Shown piece by piece: positions 5,499 through 61,236 of a DNA stretch of 64,000 nucleotides. The DNA lies in the NCBI GenBank assembly GCA_029204225.1, contig CM055092.1, positions 85,792,032 through 85,856,031 on the forward strand. Reading direction: 5' to 3'. Position numbers and translations under genes: made by a program. Numbering within the stretch: position 1 is the stretch's first letter; every line of letters starts with the position of its first letter. The DNA comes from Diphasiastrum complanatum. Its lineage: Eukaryota > Streptophyta > Lycopodiopsida > Lycopodiales > Lycopodiaceae. Below the pieces are notes generated by a model. That model was not told the DNA's origin. It did not search any database and saw only the letters and a list, made by a program, of their open reading frames with translations.

Positions 5499-5781
5499 AT
5501 AAGTTTTTATCAAGGTTTTTCATTACAATCAGAGTTACCTACAGCCAATGTAATCACGCTCAACAATCAAGCTAAAGTTATCACTTAAAACATTGTACTC
5601 ACTGTTGATATTAATTAGAGTGCAATTTTTCTTGTCTCACTACTCTATTATTCATTTGCGCAATTTGTCTGAATCATTCATCTTGAATATTTCTACTGCT
5701 AACTGTTGTGTTTCCGATCCTACACGCCCAACACTCAAAGCTTTGAGCTTCCGCTGCCAGTCATCCCCACATTTTATGACA
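5499..5781 (+). mobile_element. 3' part of a copia LTR, followed by a primer-binding site
   Basis: This segment matches 18967-19248 in the same orientation. It ends in CA at 5781 and is directly followed by TGGTATCAGATCAGG (5782 on), which matches the plant initiator tRNA-Met primer site TGGTATCAGAGC except near its end. It is therefore the R/U5 part of a 5' LTR, leading into the gag frame that starts at 5938. The upstream limit of the LTR is not defined. Confidence 0.7.
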
Positions 5782-5937
5782 TGGTATCAGATCAGGCATT
5801 TCAGTAATCTGCAATTCTATTGCAGATTATCAGTCTTGTTTCTACCAAGACGTCTATCTACAAACACACAACCAACAATATTTCGACAATCGTTGTCGAA
5901 AATCGTTGTTTCTACCAACGATCTCGTTCAAACCAGA

Positions 5938-6815
5938 ATGGATCCATCATCTAGTTCATCTCTCATTAACAAACTTGATGGAGATAACTACCATCTCTGG
6001 AAATACAAGATGAAGGTTATACTTTTAGCCAAAGAACTGTCGGACATAGTTTATGGCACAGAGCTCAAACCAGAAGGTGATGCAAACAGCATCACCAAGT
6101 GGAGACTGAGAGATGGCAAAGCATTTACCATGGTCACCCTCAACATCAAGGATACTCAGATCAGCCACATATGTGCTACTCAGACTGCTAAAGATGCATG
6201 GGACATCTTAGCAACTCTTGACGATATCAGGGATATTACTTCTAAGTTACACTTGAGGAAGAAATTTTTCACCCTGAGAATGTCTGATGCAGAAAGTGTT
6301 TCGAGTCATCTCAACACGTTCAAATATCTTATGGAAAAAATGACAACAACTGGCTCAGTCATAGAAGATTCTGATGCTCTCATGGCTCTATTAACGAGTC
6401 TATCTGAAGTCTACAAAAATTGGGTCATGGCAATTTTGACCTAGAAGCACCTCACTCTATCAAGAGTAATTTGGCTGCTCCTACAAGAGGAGATAAGAAG
6501 ATCAACATCCTCCTCAGGCTCAAGATCGGATCAACAAGCTCTATATTCAAAAAGAAATCAAAATTCAGATCAAAGAGATCTACACAGTCAGATTATCCTG
6601 ACAGGAAGAGCAACATGAATGTCTGGACCAAATTCCGGTTCAGGATCAAATTCAACCTCTTCATTGTCCCAACCAGTGCATAAACTATTTTGCAGATACT
6701 GTAAGAGGATTGGCGACAAAATAGAGGACTGGCCACAAAATCAAGGACTGCCAAACTTTGAAGTACAACAACAAAAAAAAGAAATAGTTCCAACAACAAG
6801 CACACAGTGCTACAC
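5938..6815 (+). pseudogene. Ty1/copia gag fragment, interrupted by a second copia element
   Basis: The frame starts MDPSSSSSLINKLDGDNYHL, a typical copia gag start with the 'L.G.NY..W' pattern. It continues through the UBN2-type region (about 170 residues, with KDAWDILATL) to 6444. Frameshifts follow. A damaged zinc knuckle, CRYCKRIGDKIEDWPQN, lacks the expected His and last Cys. The ATG at 5938 is preferred over the upstream Met at 5593 because it follows the LTR and primer site, while 5593 lies inside the LTR. The frame stops where the minus-strand copia LTR begins at 6816, which indicates nested insertion. No protease or pol of this element is found nearby, so it is dead. Confidence 0.8.
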
Positions 6816-7141: not shown

Positions 7142-10100
7142 TCAACAAACTTTAAGTACAGAAAGCTTTGATATAAACTTATCAAACTTTTCTCCAACAA
7201 GTGGCTTAGTGAAAATATCAGCTATTTGTTCTTCTGTGCTACAATGAACAACATGAATTTCACGACTCAGCAGCCTTTCACGTATAAAGTGATACTGAAT
7301 CTCAATGTGTTTGGTTCTCGCATGGAACACTGGATTCTTTGCTAGCTGAATGCAACTCTGACTGTCGCTATGTAATGTTGTGGGATTTTTCTGCCTCATG
7401 CCAACTTCTTCCAAGATTTGTCTCAACCATATAGCTTCTTGTGCTGCACTACACATTGCCTTATACTCTGCTTCTATGGTGGATAGAGCAATTGTACTTT
7501 TCTTCTTACTAGACCAGGAAAAGCTACTACCACAAAACTAGAATACATACCCTGTGGTGGATCTACGATCATCATAGTCACCTCCCCAATCCGCATCCAT
7601 ATAACCACACAACTCAGGTAACCCATCATGCTTCCTATAAATCAAGCCAAAATTTGAAGTGCCTTTCACATAACGCAAAATGCATTTAGCTGCCTTCCAA
7701 TGTGTTTCCGTAGGTGCTGCCATAAACTGACTTACAATGCCAACAACATAGCATATATCTGGTCTAGCCGTGGTAAGGTAAATCAAGCTTCCTACAATTG
7801 CCTATATAGCGTAGCATCAAATGGCTGTGACTCATAAAGCTTAGAAAGCTTTTTACCTGGTTCAATGGGAGTATTCACTGGTTTGCAATCCTGCAACCTA
7901 AACTTGTGCAACAACTCTTTGACATATTTCACCTATGTTAAACCCACTTCGTGTCCTTTTTGCCACACCTCTACTCCAAGGCAATAATGCATCAGGCTGA
8001 GATCTGTCATCTCGAATTGTTGCATGAGTTCTTTCTTGATCATATATATCATCTCTTGATTATTTCCCGTAATAATCAAGTCATCAACATAAAGAGCAAT
8101 CAAAGCAACCATACCATCAAAGCATAAGACATATAGATTTGGATTAGAGTGTGTTCTTACCATCCCCTTTGAACGAAAGTAGGCATCAATCCTGCTATAC
8201 CACGCACGTGGTGCCTGTCTAAGACCATAAAGCGCTTTCTTCAAGTGACATACTTATTTTCCTGTCCCTTCGCTACAAAGCCTTCAGGTTGATCCATGAA
8301 CACCTCTTCTTCTAACTCACCATTTAGAAAAGCAGATTTCACATCCATCTGATGCAAAGGCCAACCAAAATGTGAAGCTAAAGCAACAAGTAGACGTAGA
8401 GTATTCCACTTACATACTGGCGCAAAGGTCTCCTCATAGTCGATGCCTTTACTTTGTGCATACTCTTTAATCACCAATCTTGCCTTGTGCTTTGCTATAC
8501 TTCCATCTGCATGATACTTAGTCCTGTATACCCATTTGCAACCAATGGGTTTCTTGCCAACTGGTGGGTCTACTAAGTCCCATGTGCTATGCTTAGCAAT
8601 TGACTCCATCTCCTCTCCCATGGCCTTGACCCAAATGTCATCATCCTTCGCTTCACCATAAGTCGAAGGTTCTTTGCTTTGAATAATGCTAGATAAGAGA
8701 GCATAATTTGCTTCATACCTTTCAGGTTGTGTCTTGTTGATCTTCGTAGCTCTCCCTGGCTAGATGATCCCGGAAAGTCATCCATGTCATGACTCTCCAA
8801 CAATCTCTCAAACTAGTTAAGGAGCTTCCTGTCAAGTGATCGGCTTCCTGGTGAAAATGTATCCAACGATACATCCTTCTCCTTGCGTTTGTCACCTGCA
8901 ACTTCAATCCTTCTTGCACCAAAAGGTTTATCTCTACCTCTCCAACCTGTTTCTTGGGGTTGAGTAGTAGTATCTTGAGATGTATCCTCATGTTCATCAC
9001 TTGGAAGGTCAATGAATGGATCATCATCATGAGGTATCCTCACTATACCATCTTTCCCACTGGATGTATCTATTTTCTCAGCATCCTCGTCTTCATACAT
9101 CTTGGATTCATCAAAGATAACATCACGAATTACATGGATTTTGTTTTCCACTAGATCAAAACATCTATAGCCCTTCACACGATCATCATATCCTAGAAAT
9201 ATACACTTGATAGCTTTTACATCAAGTTTACATCTCTCTTCCTTAGTAATGTGTACAAAGGCCTTACATCCAAAGATTCGCAAGTGGTTCACCTTTGGCT
9301 TCTTCTTCGTGAATGCTTCCTCAGGTGTTATCTTTGGTAGTAGGACTTCTATTTTGAAGATAGACTGCCGTACTGCATGCTTCTGACCAAAAATCTTTTG
9401 GTAGTTTCATCTCAGCTAGCATAGATCTGGCATTTTCCACAATCGTACGATTCTTGCGCTCAGCTACACCATTGAGACCAGGAGTATGAGCTTGCGTAAA
9501 TTGTCTTTTAATCCCACATTGATCACAAAAATCATTGAGGTCATTAAACTTGTACTCACCTCCACTATCTGATCTTAGAACTTTTATCTTCCTACCTGTC
9601 TGATTTTTGACCAATGCTTTGAAGCTCTTGAAATTGTCAAATGCATCCGATTTCTTCTTCAAGAAGTAGATCCACGTCTTACGTGACATATCATCAATAA
9701 AGATAATGAAATAGAAGGCTTTACCTAAGGACATGGTCCTCATAGGCCCGCATAAATCTATGTGGATCAAATCCAAGATGTTCTTTGCCCTTGCAACACC
9801 ACCTTTATTGAACTTCTCTCAATGCTGCTTCCCATATACACATGATTCACACATCGATTTCAAGTGGTCTTCTATAGTAGGCAATCCTGTTACCATCTCC
9901 AATTTTCTCATCAAACTGAGGCTTCCCAAGTTTAAGTGACCAAGCCTCTTATGCCACAACTCAGTTTGCGATGGAATGGACGATATGAGTCCATGTTGCC
10001 CCTTGATTGTAGCATTCAACCTGTACAACTTAGTATTAGGCTCCCTTACTCCATCTGCAATAACTTTGAACTTTTGGTTCACATCCTTCACAAAGCAACG

Positions 10101-21262: not shown

Positions 21263-21492
21263 TAGTGACAAATGCGAAAGGAAGGATCGAGCTGGAAGCA
21301 AGATAAAGCTCTTTAGCTGCTATACGCTGTGAGTATTAGGACTTATCAGCTGCATCAAATGGAGCAGGCAGTAGCTGCACGACAGCCAATTAGTGGCAAC
21401 TGATGCTGCAAGAGCTGAGATTAATTCTACCTACAGTAAACTTGGAAGCAAAAGGTTTGATTACTGGGCGAAATTATACATTGTGAATAGAA

Positions 21493-28910
<7,418 letters not shown>

Positions 28911-32419: not shown

Positions 32420-33135
32420 GACGTCGGTTGAGATTTCACCGAGGCCGTCGGTTGAGATTTTACTGAGGGCCATTGGTCGAGATTTCATAGGGCACCGTCG
32501 ATTGAGATTTGATTTGAGGGCCGTCGGTCGAGATTTCACAGGGAACCGTTGGTTGAGATTGTATTGAGGGCGGTCGGTCGAGATTTCACAGGGCACCGTC
32601 GGTTGAGATTTGATTTGAGGGCCGTCGGTCAAGATTTCATAGGGCACCGTTGGTTGAGATATTACTGAGGGCCATCGGTCGAGATTTCACAAGGCACCGT
32701 CGATTGAGATTTGATTTGAGGTCCGTCAGTCGAGATTTCACAGGGCACCGTCGGTTGAGATTTTACTGAGGTAGTGCGTCGGTTGAGATCTGAACGATTG
32801 GCTTTGATGCAGTGCGTTGGTTGAGATCTGAACAAGCACTCTGGTTGAGATGTAAGCTAGATCTTTGGTTGAGATTTGATGCAGTGCGTCGGTTGAGATC
32901 TGAATGAGCACTCTGGTTGACATCTGATGGAATACCGTCGGTTGAGATCTGAGTGGAAACCGTCGGTCGAGATTTCAATAGATTACGGTCGGTCGAGATG
33001 TAACGGATGACCGTCGGTTGAGATCTGAGAGAGTGTGTGTCAGTTGAGATGCAATAGAATGCGTCGGTTGAGATTGGACACGAGATCTCCGGTTGAGATT
33101 TCAACACAGGGGGGGCTCCGGTTGAGATGTGATCA
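32420..33135. repeat. Minisatellite, about 25 copies of a ~28-30 base unit
   Basis: The core CGTCGGTTGAGATTT (variants CCGTCGGTCGAGATTTCA and CTCTGGTTGAGATCTGA) recurs at intervals of about 28-30 bases. From 32430 to 32780 the copies form a higher-order pair of about 58 bases. On the minus strand the unit reads as repeated ISTDG-type peptides in two frames, as expected for a repeat whose period is near a multiple of three. It lies just inside the primer site of the LTR element at 33217-34289, so it probably belongs to that element's internal region. Confidence 0.85.
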
Positions 33136-35913: not shown

Positions 35914-35920
35914 TATATAA
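35914..35920 (+). promoter_or_regulatory. TATA box of the IRG-like gene
   Basis: GCTATATAAGTAG is a strong TATA match. It predicts a start of transcription near 35945. A probable 5' UTR intron follows, with donor CAA|GTAAGT at 36030 and acceptor AACAG at 36225, which would place the start codon at 36283 in the second exon. Confidence 0.55.
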
Positions 35921-36282
35921 GTAGCCTAGCCCAAGTTGCCCAACCCACTTCTTTGCTAGATCATTGCTGTCTTCAGATTGTTGCTTTAGTGAATTCTGCT
36001 GCTGCAGCCTTCAGATCCACATATCCCAAGTAAGTGATGTAAGGTTTTTTGAATTGCTGCAGTTTGTGGGTCTTCTGCTGGTGGCAATTATGAATATGAA
36101 AACCTTCTTAAACGTTACCCTTTCCTTGGTTGAGATATTTTTAAGAAAAAACAAAAGAGGATATATTTTGCTGGTTTTAATGTGGATCTTAATGCAATGG
36201 AATCCTTTTGTCTTTTTCTGAACAGGAGTATAAGCTCTAAACAGGACAAAACAAGACTACAATCGACAAAATTTGTGTAAAT

Positions 36283-39200
36283 ATGTTGACAAAGAGCACA
36301 GTAGCTCGGGAAATACGTCTCAACAAGAACTGGCAAGATCTATATAGGAAGCGTGCCAAGGAGTTGCTATCGGGCTCGAAAAGAGTCGGAGCTCCATTTA
36401 CTGTTCGTATTGTTGGACGAGCTGGAGTTGGAAAGGGATCTTTGGTGAACCACTTGCTTCTATCTTACTCTGCTACCGTCTCACATAACATCAGCGGAAA
36501 TGATGAAGTGGAGAAGGTGTATAATATATCAGGCCTTCGCGTGCTGGATATTCCAGGCTACGATGGCACGCATGCCAACGCTGCGCAGCATGGAGGGTAT
36601 GTTTATCACCTTTAAGCACTTTCTGGTTGCAACTTACACATGGTTTTGGCACAATCCTTTTAAGACCTGAGGTATCAAATTTGTGATTGGGGAATGAATT
36701 TCCTAGTGGCCTTTCCATCAGGTAAATTTGAATTTGTGACGAAATGGGTAATGGAAATGGACCGAGATGTAGAGGAAAGGTCTCCACTAAAGGAGGGAAA
36801 TGCAGACCCCTTTTGCCAGACCCCTTTTACGAGTCACACTTCACCACTCAAACTTTCTTTAAGCTGTATTTCTAGAAATTTCTTAATGGATGTTGCTATA
36901 CATCCTATGCCAGCTAAAAACATGAGATGACTTTCGAAACCGACAGTCTTTCCTTTCACATCTATTGACTCAACTTAAAAATTTTCAAAAAAAAAAGGAG
37001 GCAGCAGGCAGAGGTCATAAAGATTCTGCTGAACTTCCTGCATTGTAATTTCCCAAGGCACTTTACTGAAGATTCAACAACTTTGCAGTGCTAGATTTGT
37101 ACAAGCTCTCTTTTTCTTGCTTGTGTGGGTGTTGCTATCTGTTATTTGTCATTTCATGGGAAGTGGTGGTTGTTGTCAGTAAAATCTCTGGATGGACACA
37201 GGTCAGCAATCCTGATGCAATAATTTTAGTGGGCCAGGCTGAGATGGTAGCATAGTAGCAAGAATGAGGAACAATGAGAATAGCAGGATCTGAAAATGTA
37301 ATACTTGAGTTGGCTAATCTTAGTTTCAGGTAGAGCTCAAGACCACATCTGAGTACCAAGTGAAAAGCTCAAACCTTTCCTGTAGGTGAAAAGTAGACTA
37401 GAAACTTGTAAAATTTAAGCTCCCAGTAAAATCTTGAACAAAAACAGGGCAGGCATGTACATCTTGACAATATATGGTAATCAACAAATCTATCCCTTTG
37501 CTACAGGAATTGGTGCATAAGGAGGTCATTTGCATTTTGCCAACAAGGGAAGCTATCGAAGTTACACCAGCCAGTAGGAGATTTTCTGCATTGTTTTAGT
37601 AATTAATGATCCAAAAAATAGCCATTTAAGATCATATGTACGCGTCCAGGAAGACAAAAATTGTTGCATAATTTTCTATTCTTTGAATAAGAAATTGCTC
37701 ACAAATCTTTAACCGAGTTTCCAACGAAAGGGCTTATCTGATCATTGAAAGGGATTCTTTTACATATGAGTAGTCCTTTCTGCAGTTGTTTGCTCATATT
37801 TTTACATTTATCCTGGATGCAGGAAAGATGGAAAGCTCAGTTTGGAGCAGTTTGCAAAAGCATATAATATCTTTGAAAACGAGACTAGTGCTGTGATCTT
37901 CGTGGTAAACAACAGAATCACGCCGCAAGACAAAGACCTCATGTCCATGGCTGTTGATGCTCGAAAGTTTTTTTGTGTTGTTCGAACTTATGCTGATAAT
38001 ATTGCTCGCATACGGGATCCGAAACACCAAGAGAAACGCTTGAATGAAATGGAGGAGAGTATCAGGTACGCTTTTCCTCATGTGGATTTCAATAGATGTG
38101 TCTAGGTCTTTCACACTTCATAAGAAACAAGGAGTACATATGATGACAGAAAGGAAATCTTGACAATTTTTTGTGTGGTTCCTCCCTGCCCACTTTTGTG
38201 CTAGTTTTACTTGGAAGAGAACGTGGTCCTGAAAACTTTGAAAGCAAGATATGATGAGATTGAAACCTGTATAGTACAGTCAGGATAATCCAATTTATTT
38301 ATAAAAATCACACACAAAAACACAGAGAGAAACGGAAGAGACAATCTGTTGATCAAATGAACGTGAATCACTGACAAATTGAACATTCCAGCAAATCTAA
38401 GCCTGTATTTGCCAACTCTGAGCTATGCTAGTCTTTATCTACCATTTGAACAATCAAACACAGTGGAAGGAGGCTCACAGTCCTCTTCATATCTGCTTGA
38501 TATGATTAGGGCTTGAGCTGTGGCTCCTAGTTCTGGGGCCCAAAGATTCATTTTATTTATAAATGCCCCTGTGGTTCTAGGCCACCCCCCTCATCTGAGG
38601 GTGTGCCAGTATTTGTAGGGCCATCCCAACCTGACTATCTCCAGAGGACAAAGAATCAACATTTATGAAATAAAACCAGTCAAAAATGTGTTATATACAT
38701 TCAGACTCATGTTAGATACAAAATCATTCTACAATATTGATGGTGGTTCAAACATGTAATTCCACAAGAAGATGGAGGCATTTGGATCCTCATTGTCAAG
38801 AGCTTTAGAGTTTATGCCTGTGTTGACAAAAAGTTCAAAAAATACCTTTGAACACTCAAAAAAGACCTTTGAACCAGTCAAATGTCTCTCAAATGTCAAC
38901 GTAAATCTTGGGTGGTGAGAAACAATGTTATTCATCACCTTCTTTGAGATTTAACAGCGTTTCATCGAACATTAACTTTTTTTTAAGTTTTATGAATTAG
39001 GCCATGCCTAGCACTATTCATTTTAAGATTCATGTATAACACCCAGTTCAGTCCAGAAAGTTTGGAATTCCATGCTATCACATGAGAAATTCCAATATAA
39101 ATGCCCAAGAATGTTGACCGATGTAACTTTTCAAGAACTACTGGATAGCGTTAAGGCTTAAATATTTGAGAGTTAAAAATCAGTTGACATGGTTCTTGAT

Positions 39201-40734
39201 TCGCCTGATAAGAAATTAGATTACAGTCAAAAAGCAAGGACATCAAAGAAATGTTTCTTACTTCGTAGAGATATGCTCCTGTTTTTAGTTGGTGTGGTTT
39301 GTGGAGAGAAAATTTGTCCCTAGGAAATTTATGCTTCTTGGTTTCCAAGGGGAGGCTCAAACTTGGGACCAAAGGATCTTTGGATGCCAGGCAAACCAAC
39401 GGAGCCAACCCCGTTGGGTACCCTAGAAAATATATGAGAAAACTGTTATTGAAATGGATTTCTTTTGCTGGTTTCAGCAACCTTGGTAGTACTTTATTTA
39501 TGAATGGCAAAGAGTTACTCATTGTGAACTTCATTTTTTAGTTTAAGCAACCATCCTGTGGAGGTTGTAAAACTATGTGAACTGAGCTACTTATTGTTGA
39601 TATGGGTTGCTCAATTCAAGTTAACACTTCTGTCCTCGTAAACTTTGTCCTTGTGCAAGGTCAAGCTTTCTCAGTCTTTTGAAGTATTGGGAATCCATTC
39701 ATCATCAGGGCTAAGAACTTCTTTATGAGAATTTCATGGAATAGAGATTTGTAGAAATGGCTCTGTTTTGAACAGACTTATTAGATTTTGTTGATGAGAA
39801 TCTATGCAATATAAATGTGTAGTAATGTTTGTATATTTAAACAAAGTAATCGTTCTTTTTTATAACAATCTGTGCAAATGACATTTGTAGAAATCCCTGT
39901 TTGTTCTTGATTCTCTTTATGTATATGACATTAATGGTTGCCAGTACAGCAATGTACAAGATAATTATAGGAATTGAGAACATATTGCATCCTCGTTGCT
40001 GCAGGAAGGAGCTTAGTTTGACAACAAATTTGAACATTCGTATCTTCGTAGTCAGCATTGGTTGGCCAGAATACTCTGTTGTGGGGGAAGAACTCCAAGG
40101 GGAAGATTTAGAAGAGGTTGAGGACAATAGAAACTCCTTACAGTTTCCTTTGCTTAGATCATATCTCAGTGAGCAGAAGGGTCTATCTGATGAACTACAA
40201 ATCCATAGTTTTGTAAAAGAGGAGATCTGGAAGGTGTTGTCCCCATTTCAGACTGTGACAATGTGGTATCAAACACTGGATTTTTTTGAGCATTTGGCTG
40301 TAGGTACATTTGTCCCTGTTGCAGGTCCAATAGCACTCTCATTCTCTAAGACTTTGTATTACACATTAAAAGCTATCGGAGAAGTTGGGATTCTTGAAGA
40401 CCCAGATGGAGCCATTCTAACATTGAAAAAGCACACACACAAAACTGCCTTGATCATGCATTCGGCATCTAGAGGTGGTCTTGTGACTGCAGTTCACGAA
40501 GCTTTGGTGGAGATCTTTGGAGAAGTTATTTTTGAGATTGCAATAGCAGATCTTGTGGTTACAGCAGCTGAGGCCACCGTTTCACAGGCGATTCCCCTTC
40601 TTGGACCACTCTTATCTGCAACACACTTGCCAAGCCAATATAGGAAGCTTGCAAATAAGTTGGCATCAAAAGCTTGCATGCTTCATGAGCTTTGGATAAT
40701 GCAGAATATTACCAATCTCATTAATGTGGCCTAA
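36283..40734 (+). CDS. IRG-like (immunity-related GTPase-like) protein, three coding exons
   Basis: Exons 36283-36596, 37823-38065 and 40005-40734 join in phase across GT-AG introns into 428 residues, close to the usual IRG size. Order of features: a basic helix (1-35), a P-loop GRAGVGKGS (45-53), a G3-like LDIPGYDG (88-95), then a segment like the IRG G-domain (VIFVVNNRITPQDKDL, 129-144; FFCVVRTYAD, 154-163). A long helical C-terminal part follows, with VPVAGPIALSF and IPLLGPLLSATHLPSQYRK, resembling the IRG helical domain. Two motifs are odd: the P-loop has Gly where Ser/Thr normally binds Mg, and the G4 TKxD is TYAD. In animals IRG proteins act on membranes and in cell-autonomous defence; the role in a plant is unknown. 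AIG1/IAN GTPases are the alternative, but the C-terminal half fits IRG better. The ATG is supported by the TATA box and UTR intron upstream. Confidence 0.65.
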
Positions 40735-41639: not shown

Positions 41640-42525
41640 GATAATGATGAATAGTATGAGAGGTACATCAAGTTTTTCTTTTATCGCTAGTGGCAACCCA
41701 AAAAACTTGGATCAAGTGTTGTGACGACCACAGGGCCTTCAAATGATTTGAATTGGATCTTAGGCTCTGCTAATCATATTGTGATCTGCATGTTGGAAAT
41801 TGCATAACAAATAGGAAGACAATCCCAAACACAACTTCATTCAAAGAGATGAAAACAATTAAGCGTGGTTGTAACTCAAAAGTAAAAGCCATACAACAAA
41901 AAATGAGATCTAAAATGGCCTCTTATCAATCAGGTGGATCTTGTTAAAGTGGTTAATCATATCAAGAAAGTGCAACCGCTCTTCTTCCTTCATGCCGCTT
42001 GTGACATGAGTTAAAAGTTTCAAGATCTATAAAAAAAATGGATCCCTCATCACTTAGCAATTGAACATAACATGAGATCTTTTTTTGGATCGTCGTGTGC
42101 TCACCCAAGGCCCAACAATATTAAAGTTGTGAACAAAATTTACAAACCAGCCTTATAAGAATCTCCTCCATCCAAGTAAGCGACTTCGATAAGGCTCTCA
42201 CAACATTTGAATGGAAGCAGTAAAATACTACAATAAAACCTGTCAATATGATCTTTATTTCTAAAATGAATGCATTTTCCAGAGATAAACATGTCACAAC
42301 CTTTGAACCTTCAACCTACTAAATAAAATGTCAATTTCAGCAATTGGGTTATGTTTTAATCAATTTTCTGCAAGCACTGAAGATGTCTGGTTAGTGTTTT
42401 GCAACAAGGAAACCCCTGTCCTGGCTCCCTTCCAAACAGAAAACCCAAAACTTTGGAGCCCTCTTGCCAATTAATTGTAAAATCTTGTATGCGGAGAAGT
42501 AAGCAATCACCAAAAACACATTTAG
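40735..42525. other. Downstream region with a duplicated segment
   Basis: The first part is probably the GTPase-like gene's 3' UTR. A plus frame of 127 residues (41188-41571) contains two diverged copies of a ~110-base segment starting near 41240 and 41406. Both encode NKLALELLETA / DNLALEMLETA-like peptides. I recognise no family and no promoter, and it may be non-coding. The remaining sequence shows nothing. Confidence 0.4.
41599..41637. repeat. (CT)n microsatellite
   Basis: 39 bases of uninterrupted CT. Confidence 0.97.
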
Positions 42526-42598
42526 TGGCCCCAGCGAGTTTCGAACTCGCGACCTTTCGCGTGTAAAGCGAACGTGATAACCACTACACCATGGGACC
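42526..42598 (-). tRNA. tRNA-Val, anticodon UAC
   Basis: The minus strand folds into a full cloverleaf of 73 bases. The acceptor stem is GGTCCCA/TGGGGCC with one G-T pair. The anticodon stem TTCGC/GCGAA encloses the loop TTTACAC (anticodon TAC). The T-arm is GCGAG-TTCGAAA-CTCGC and the discriminator base is A. No intron and no encoded CCA, as usual for nuclear plant tRNAs. The gene lies in AT-rich DNA without other genes close by. The A and B boxes match the consensus by eye, so it is probably functional. Confidence 0.93.
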
Positions 42599-60049: not shown

Positions 60050-61236
60050 CTAAGTCGCACTAATGAATAAAAAAGGGCCCAAGGCCTGCTTATGCATAAA
60101 GTAAAGTAAATGTAAATGGACGCGGCGAATGTAATGGGCCGAGTCCATAACTCTCCCTGGCACAAAAAAAAAGACCCAACTACCGAAAAGAGCAGCAAGC
60201 CCTGGTGCATCAACAGCTATAACATCTGATGTAGAGGAATCAACAAGTGCAGCAAGAGCACGAGCCTGATCCGCAAGTGATGGTGTATGATAAAAGACAT
60301 CAATAGGCTCCCATGTGGCCTCCTCAATAGGACGACCATCCCACTGGACCAAAAACTGAATCTGTCGGCGGCGTCGACTATGGTATAGACGAACCTGTAA
60401 TATAGCAGCAGGTAAAAATGAAAATAACTCTAGAGCAGTAGGAAACTCAGCATCACAAGGAGCGTCATCCTCAATAGCAGCACGTAATAAACTGACATGG
60501 AATACATCACAAGCGCGTGTGGAAGCAGGAAGCTGTAAGCGATATGTAACTGGACTAAGAACCTCCAAAATGCGATAAGGCCCATAATAAAGTGGTGCAA
60601 GCTTCTCAATAGAAGCATAGCCCTGGACAAAATGATGACGTGCAAACCGTAGGCGTAGATAAACCATATCTCCAAGCTGAAACTCAACATGGCGGCGGTG
60701 ACGATCAACTGAGGTCTGATAATGCTGCTGTAACAATCTGTAAATGAGAACTGGCCCAGGTAATAAGCTCTCGGGCACCTAATAGAAAAGATGCAAGTGT
60801 GACAGGTGTATCCTCAAGAGGGAGAGGAATGCAAGATAAAAGAGGTGCATAGCCATGAGATTATAAGAATGGTGAGACACCTGTGCTGGTACTAACAGAG
60901 CTATTATAGCTATACTCTGCTAAACATAAATGCTGATCCCAATCCTTCCCAGAAGGAGTAACAAAATGGCATAAATAATCCTCAAGGATCCTGTTAAGGA
61001 CCTCAGACTGTCCATCAAAGTAGAATGATAAGCAGAACCCATAAAAAGTTGTACATCCAATATACGCATAAGCTCTGTCCAGAATATAGATGTAAACTTA
61101 CTATCCCGATCAGAAAGGATAGTACGAGGAAATCCATGTAAGCGGAAAATCTCTTATAGGAACAAACGTGCACACTGCTCTGCTGTGATAGTACTGCAAA
61201 CTAGTATAAAATGTGCCTGTTTCAAGAACCTGTCAA
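60050..61236 (-). pseudogene. Ty3/gypsy integrase with chromodomain, broken
   Basis: From the high end: VDRFLKQAHFILV and TITAEQCARLFL, then FRLHGFPRTILSDRDSKFTS with the second catalytic Asp. WDQHLCLAEYSYNSS follows after a frameshift near 60990. Then come the C-terminal LGDMVYLRLRFARH and GPYRILEVLSPVTYRLQLP, and a chromodomain-like QIQFLVQWDGRPIEEATWEP (around 60320). The frame 60050-60778 is open. Frameshifts and stops (for example a TAA in FL*EIFRLHG) kill the upstream part. The chromodomain places it in the chromovirus branch, which targets marked chromatin. It is truncated at about 61236 by a plus-strand copia. Confidence 0.88.

Follow-up and report, generated by a model that had tools for sequence, protein, structure and literature searches.

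In the clubmoss Diphasiastrum complanatum, a real, intact, and conserved nuclear gene was confirmed in a 64,000-nucleotide stretch of the genome (the window), which the whole-genome search placed at 85.79–85.86 Mb of contig C1 in the 1.74-Gb assembly. The gene product, which combines a G domain with a predicted helical C-terminal half, belongs, with a probability of roughly 0.55, to a previously undescribed family of G proteins from seed-free land plants that would work like an immunity-related GTPase (IRG), a quasi-IRG, or a dynamin-like scaffold without demonstrated membership among them. Most likely, it is an ancient G protein of seed-free plants whose nucleotide handling is altered and whose helical tail may associate with membranes.

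The gene consists of three coding exons on the plus strand, read from the sequence, with GT-AG introns that are both in phase 2. The joined exons comprise 1287 nt and encode 428 residues and a stop codon with no internal stop. The initial annotation, which had proposed an IRG-like GTPase gene, joined the exons in the same way, and this was borne out by a protein database search: the product was identical (100% over the full length) to D. complanatum O6H91_01G158000, deposited as a "hypothetical protein", which means that the database already contains this gene model. In the alignment, both coding junctions were crossed without a break by three relatives, namely, P0003 and P0005, which are genome annotation proteins, and P0004, which was read from a 1728-base contig and so hints at, without proving, a transcript. 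The TATA box and the probable intron in the 5′-untranslated region (5′-UTR) that had been pointed out were also present, and TATATAA, GTAAGT, and CAG were kept in an inverted duplicate gene 77 kb away. The duplicate protein was identical to the window protein at 387 of 429 alignment columns. The nonsynonymous (dN) and synonymous (dS) divergences between the two genes were 0.043 and 0.184, respectively, and their ratio of 0.233 (0.149–0.351 in 1000 bootstraps) indicates that the pair is under constraint. The ratios for exons 1, 2, and 3 were 0.13, 0.10, and 0.34, respectively, as point estimates without intervals. The two clubmoss copies are under purifying selection, which by point estimate is strongest in the G-domain exons. 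The earlier view of an intact gene was upheld by the open frame, the conserved relatives, and the constrained duplicate pair.

Two protein searches, one with the whole protein (10 hits) and one with the C-terminal alignment (11 hits), yielded 12 different proteins; P0003 (533 residues) was left out of the C-terminal search because it was over the length limit of that query. These proteins were three models of the two clubmoss genes, one protein of Marchantia paleacea (49% identity), two of Adiantum nelumboides, one of A. capillus-veneris, one of Ceratopteris richardii, three from short contigs, and one from a EukProt entry. The relatives in related plants that had been hoped for were thus found in a liverwort and several ferns at about 50% identity, and all named members come from seed-free plants. 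Because each search scored only the 7996 candidates with the most words in common, the absence of seed plants, mosses, and other groups is indicated, not proven. Searches for bacterial, archaeal, or viral relatives confirmed none.

Nucleotide-binding site and predicted structure

The G1 and G3 motifs were covered by the same 5 of the 12 proteins, and G4 was covered by 9. G1 ended in GKG in four of the five, including the window protein, and in GKS in one (fern P0005). The P-loop of the window protein thus ends in GKG instead of GKS/T, and its G4 reads TYAD instead of TKxD; neither had been mentioned in the initial annotation. G3 was DIPG, EIPG, and DIPS in two, two, and one of the five, respectively, always followed by Tyr, with DIPGY in the window protein. 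G4 was TYAD in three proteins, THAD in six, and TKxD in none. In terms of the residue roles generally known for P-loop GTPases, the proteins covering these positions retain the guanine-reading Asp, but most have a substitute for the Mg2+-binding Ser/Thr, and all have one for the G4 Lys. The exon 3 product contains two P-x-x-G-P segments and, close to its C-terminal end, an HELWI...QN stretch; HELWI and QN were invariant in all 11 rows of the exon 3 alignment. As judged from these motifs, the family has a signature of its own, in which the G4 Lys is changed to Tyr or His and G1 mostly ends in GKG.

P0004, P0005, and P0007 (two Adiantum proteins and one contig protein) carry a long His/Ser-rich insert in the G domain after G3, which is absent in the clubmoss protein and is possibly metal-binding or disordered.

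The predicted model consists of short N-terminal helices, a G domain, and an all-helical C-terminal domain, which is conserved in the family. The P-loop (GRAGVGKG), the DIPG motif, and the helical C-terminal half named in the initial annotation are therefore all present, the last in the predicted model. Of the 50 best Foldseek rows, 22 were crystal structures of IRGs aligned over nearly the full length (393–470 columns), and the 50 rows also listed GIMAP2, as one of many G domains, and dynamin-like proteins. In the structural alignment to IRG, only the G domain was covered. The hydrophobic stretch spanning residues 353–371 in the tail of the window protein scored 1.96, and those at the P-x-x-G-P segments scored 1.43 and 1.05.

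Intron 2 falls in codon 186, near the end of a modelled helix (residues 171–188) after G4. In fish irgf genes, a single intron is reported at the end of G-domain helix 4 (PMC1297648).

Family membership and alternative explanations

The window protein scored 32.8 bits against the G-domain superfamily profile MMR_HSR1 (PF01926; cut-off, 21.9), which matched 4 of the 10 alignment members, several of the others having no G domain. Its best sequence matches were EngB/Der, and its score of 34.7 bits against the EngB/YsxC equivalog TIGR03598 was below the cut-off of 124.45. Residues 37–240 aligned with a profile of 33 IRG domains with an hhalign probability of 96.3% (23% identity over 167 columns), taking in the R-x4-D and KFF/FYF-V-R-T..D stretches. 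The G domain is of the TRAFAC type, of the EngB/Der/IRG sort. In contrast, Pfam IIGP (PF05049), the profile proposed for testing IRG membership, did not match the window protein at E ≤ 1; its single match among the 10 alignment members reached 15.6 bits (cut-off, 24) over 19 residues of a fern P-loop. A six-frame IIGP search of the whole genome gave no matches and was uninformative on absence, as control genomes gave no signal. The profile similarity of the helical half to the IRG helical domain was no greater than that of shuffled controls.

Similar to IRGs (p47; Irga6/IIGP1, Irgb6, and Irgb10; PF05049), the clubmoss protein has a comparable length and, in the predicted model, N-terminal helices followed by a G domain and a helical domain; a hydrophobic residue, not Gln, comes after DxPG, and the R-x4-D and FF/FYF-V-R-T..D stretches align. 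However, the IRG hallmarks GxxxxGKS (or GMS) in G1 and (T/S)KxD in G4 were absent from the window protein and from all nine proteins covering G4, respectively, where GKG and TYAD or THAD occur, and DxPG followed by Tyr is not diagnostic of IRGs because EngB also has D(L/V)PGY. The initial proposal of an IRG-like GTPase therefore stands for the domain layout and the IRG rows in Foldseek, but not for the IIGP match, the best sequence matches, or the profile similarity of the helical half.

Several observations weigh against the favored reading of an IRG-like or dynamin-like scaffold. The helical domain was placed by one medium-confidence model, the other four having mean pLDDT values of 59–66, and when folded alone it gave a pLDDT of 50.9 and no significant structural match. 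In the suggested structural comparison with Irga6, IRGs filled many Foldseek rows, but with TM-scores of 0.25–0.33 and rmsd of about 19–22, so there is no superposition over the entire chains. The canonical GKS P-loop of fern P0005 shows that the change to GKG is not universal. The residue after the start Met is not Gly, so no myristoylation is expected.

Alternative explanations were weighed against the same data. The hhalign result, the 22 near-full-length Foldseek alignments, and pairwise comparisons of the helical half in 3 plant rows with 5 turtle, fish, and shark IRGs, whose mean scores lay 3.2 (global) and 3.4 (local) standard deviations above those of 100 shuffles, would suit a true plant IRG or quasi-IRG, whose helical half is homologous and has diverged past sequence detection; the altered motifs resemble those of vertebrate quasi-GTPases such as IRGQ (PMC1297648). 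We consider this explanation unlikely. IRGQ shares the IRG-like layout with altered nucleotide-binding motifs; it is sequence-related to IRGs and linked to IRGC (PMC1297648), a sequence link that the comparisons made here did not show for the clubmoss family. The protein might instead be an EngB/Der/Era offshoot that acquired a helical tail while retaining an organelle function related to ribosomes or RNA. EngB and Der are ribosome factors, and EngB/YsxC and Der (the TrmE-Era-EngA-EngB group) gave the top G-domain scores and share D-x-P-G-Y and the RI.PQD.DLM stretch. However, they have a canonical TKxD (TKMD and TKAD in two alignments) and no such helical tail, and to our knowledge EngB has neither a conserved helical domain of this kind nor an altered G4. 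With a score far below the EngB cut-off and no transit peptide recognized by eye, this origin is unlikely too, slightly more so than a true plant IRG.

Assignment to AIG1/IAN (GIMAP) or another already named plant GTPase family is barely conceivable. Plants do carry AIG1 genes, and GIMAP2 appeared among the Foldseek rows, but AIG1 (PF04548) gave no hit for the window protein, and two of the 10 alignment members scored 12.4 and 13.3 bits (cut-off, 27), the better over 23 P-loop residues. AIG1 was thus not a better match, and by these profile scores it appears largely refuted. Dynamin-like proteins (BDLP, IniA, and MxA) resemble the clubmoss protein in joining a G domain to a long helical part, but their chains are longer, and Pfam Dynamin_N hit only the P-loop of one relative, below the cut-off. 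Several partial exon 1–2 copies in the genome, two of them with stop codons, and retroelement fragments within the window might raise the suspicion of a decaying or mispredicted gene in a region rich in retrotransposons; given the open frame, the conserved splice sites, the dN/dS of 0.23, and the identity of about 50% to a liverwort protein, this is extremely improbable.

Other copies and surroundings

The search of the clubmoss genome listed 23 matches, among which two intact genes were found, the window gene and its duplicate (Table 1). The exons of the duplicate join into one protein, with TAG instead of CAG as the third-exon acceptor; public annotation splits it into two half genes, P0012 (O6H91_01G158400) and P0002 (O6H91_01G158300). 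The small contig C3382 carries a second copy of the window gene, differing by one nucleotide and one residue in the coding sequence, and a match on contig C4316 scored the same as exon 3 of the duplicate, exons 1 and 2 of C4316 not being among the matches listed. Only these four matches covered exon 3. Pieces of exon 1 and/or exon 2 alone occurred at another place on C1, twice on C9, on C15, twice on C19, on C23, and on C1713; the two exon 1 matches on C9 lie in opposite orientation about 100 kb apart and share two TAG stops each. This gene seems to have been partially duplicated more than once.

Elsewhere in the window, the Metallophos match and perhaps the plus-strand frame without a Pfam match resemble, by eye, purple acid phosphatase exons. 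The retroelement fragments contained copia-type gag (twice), reverse transcriptase, and a piece with chromo and integrase-C domains, and further pieces were seen by eye.

Table 1. Positions of the gene, its signals, its duplicate, and neighboring features (window numbering unless a contig is given)
Feature	Position	Strand	Remarks
TATA box TATATAAG, probable promoter	35914..35921	+	Read directly; TATATAA also in duplicate
Probable 5′-UTR intron, donor GTAAGT, acceptor CAG	36030..36225	+	Read directly; both signals kept in duplicate
Coding exon 1	36283..36596	+	N-terminal helices, G1 GRAGVGKG, G3 DIPGY
Intron 1, phase 2, GTATGT...GCAG	36597..37822	+	
Coding exon 2	37823..38065	+	Further G domain, RITPQD stretch, TYAD in place of G4
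Intron 2, phase 2, GTACGC...GCAG	38066..40004	+	
Coding exon 3 with stop	40005..40734	+	Last G-domain strand and C-terminal helical domain
Intact inverted duplicate	C1:85909682-85916178	minus	429 residues, ~77 kb from window gene
Metallophos (PF00149) match	26686-27021	+	
Frame with no Pfam match	21487-21855	+	
Retroelement fragments	5554-6441, 8244-8759, 23497-24030, 60053-60778		
tRNA-Val gene	42525-42598	-	Anticodon TAC (ARAGORN); tRNA match in Rfam too
Minisatellite array	32422-33028		Units of 51/101 bp and 24-25 bp; overlaps long minus-strand open frames

Proposed mode of action and significance

Because GKG replaces GKS/T, Tyr or His replaces the G4 Lys, and Tyr occupies the position of the catalytic Gln of Ras, we infer that guanine nucleotide may be bound weakly or through changed contacts to Mg2+ and the base. 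The G domain would then probably act as a dimerization switch, slow or poor in hydrolysis, and not as a fast enzyme. Pairing that depends on nucleotide would leave the helical domain exposed or ordered, and the hydrophobic helix and both P-x-x-G-P segments of this domain might contact a membrane or other copies of the protein; membrane binding by the tail is thus proposed from the sequence. In Irga6, activation takes place across a "catalytic interface" of the dimer, which is required for accumulation on the parasite vacuole (PMC3042988), and vertebrate quasi-GTPases with altered motifs (IRGQ) provide a precedent for possible regulatory partners (PMC1297648). A defence role of the family is a conjecture. 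It is quite a long shot that the family is an ancient land-plant branch of IRGs or quasi-IRGs that seed plants have lost and that targets the membranes surrounding intracellular microbes, where GKG and TY/HAD would mark a regulatory partner and not a fast GTPase; such microbes could be, for example, fungal structures in the cells of liverworts, ferns, and clubmoss gametophytes, which is just as speculative.

According to PMC1297648, unambiguous IRG homologues had by then been found in vertebrates only, and sequence comparison did not suffice to place similar proteins of bacteria and nematodes. The clubmoss family is in the same position, with an IRG-like layout and unproven membership. The family is conserved in seed-free plants but has no name. 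Although its nucleotide-binding site does not follow the textbook motifs, dN/dS is lowest in the exons encoding this site, which makes the protein a candidate pseudo-GTPase or an altered GTPase with a chemistry of its own. Should the helical half prove to have the IRG fold, the architecture of immune GTPases would extend to land plants.
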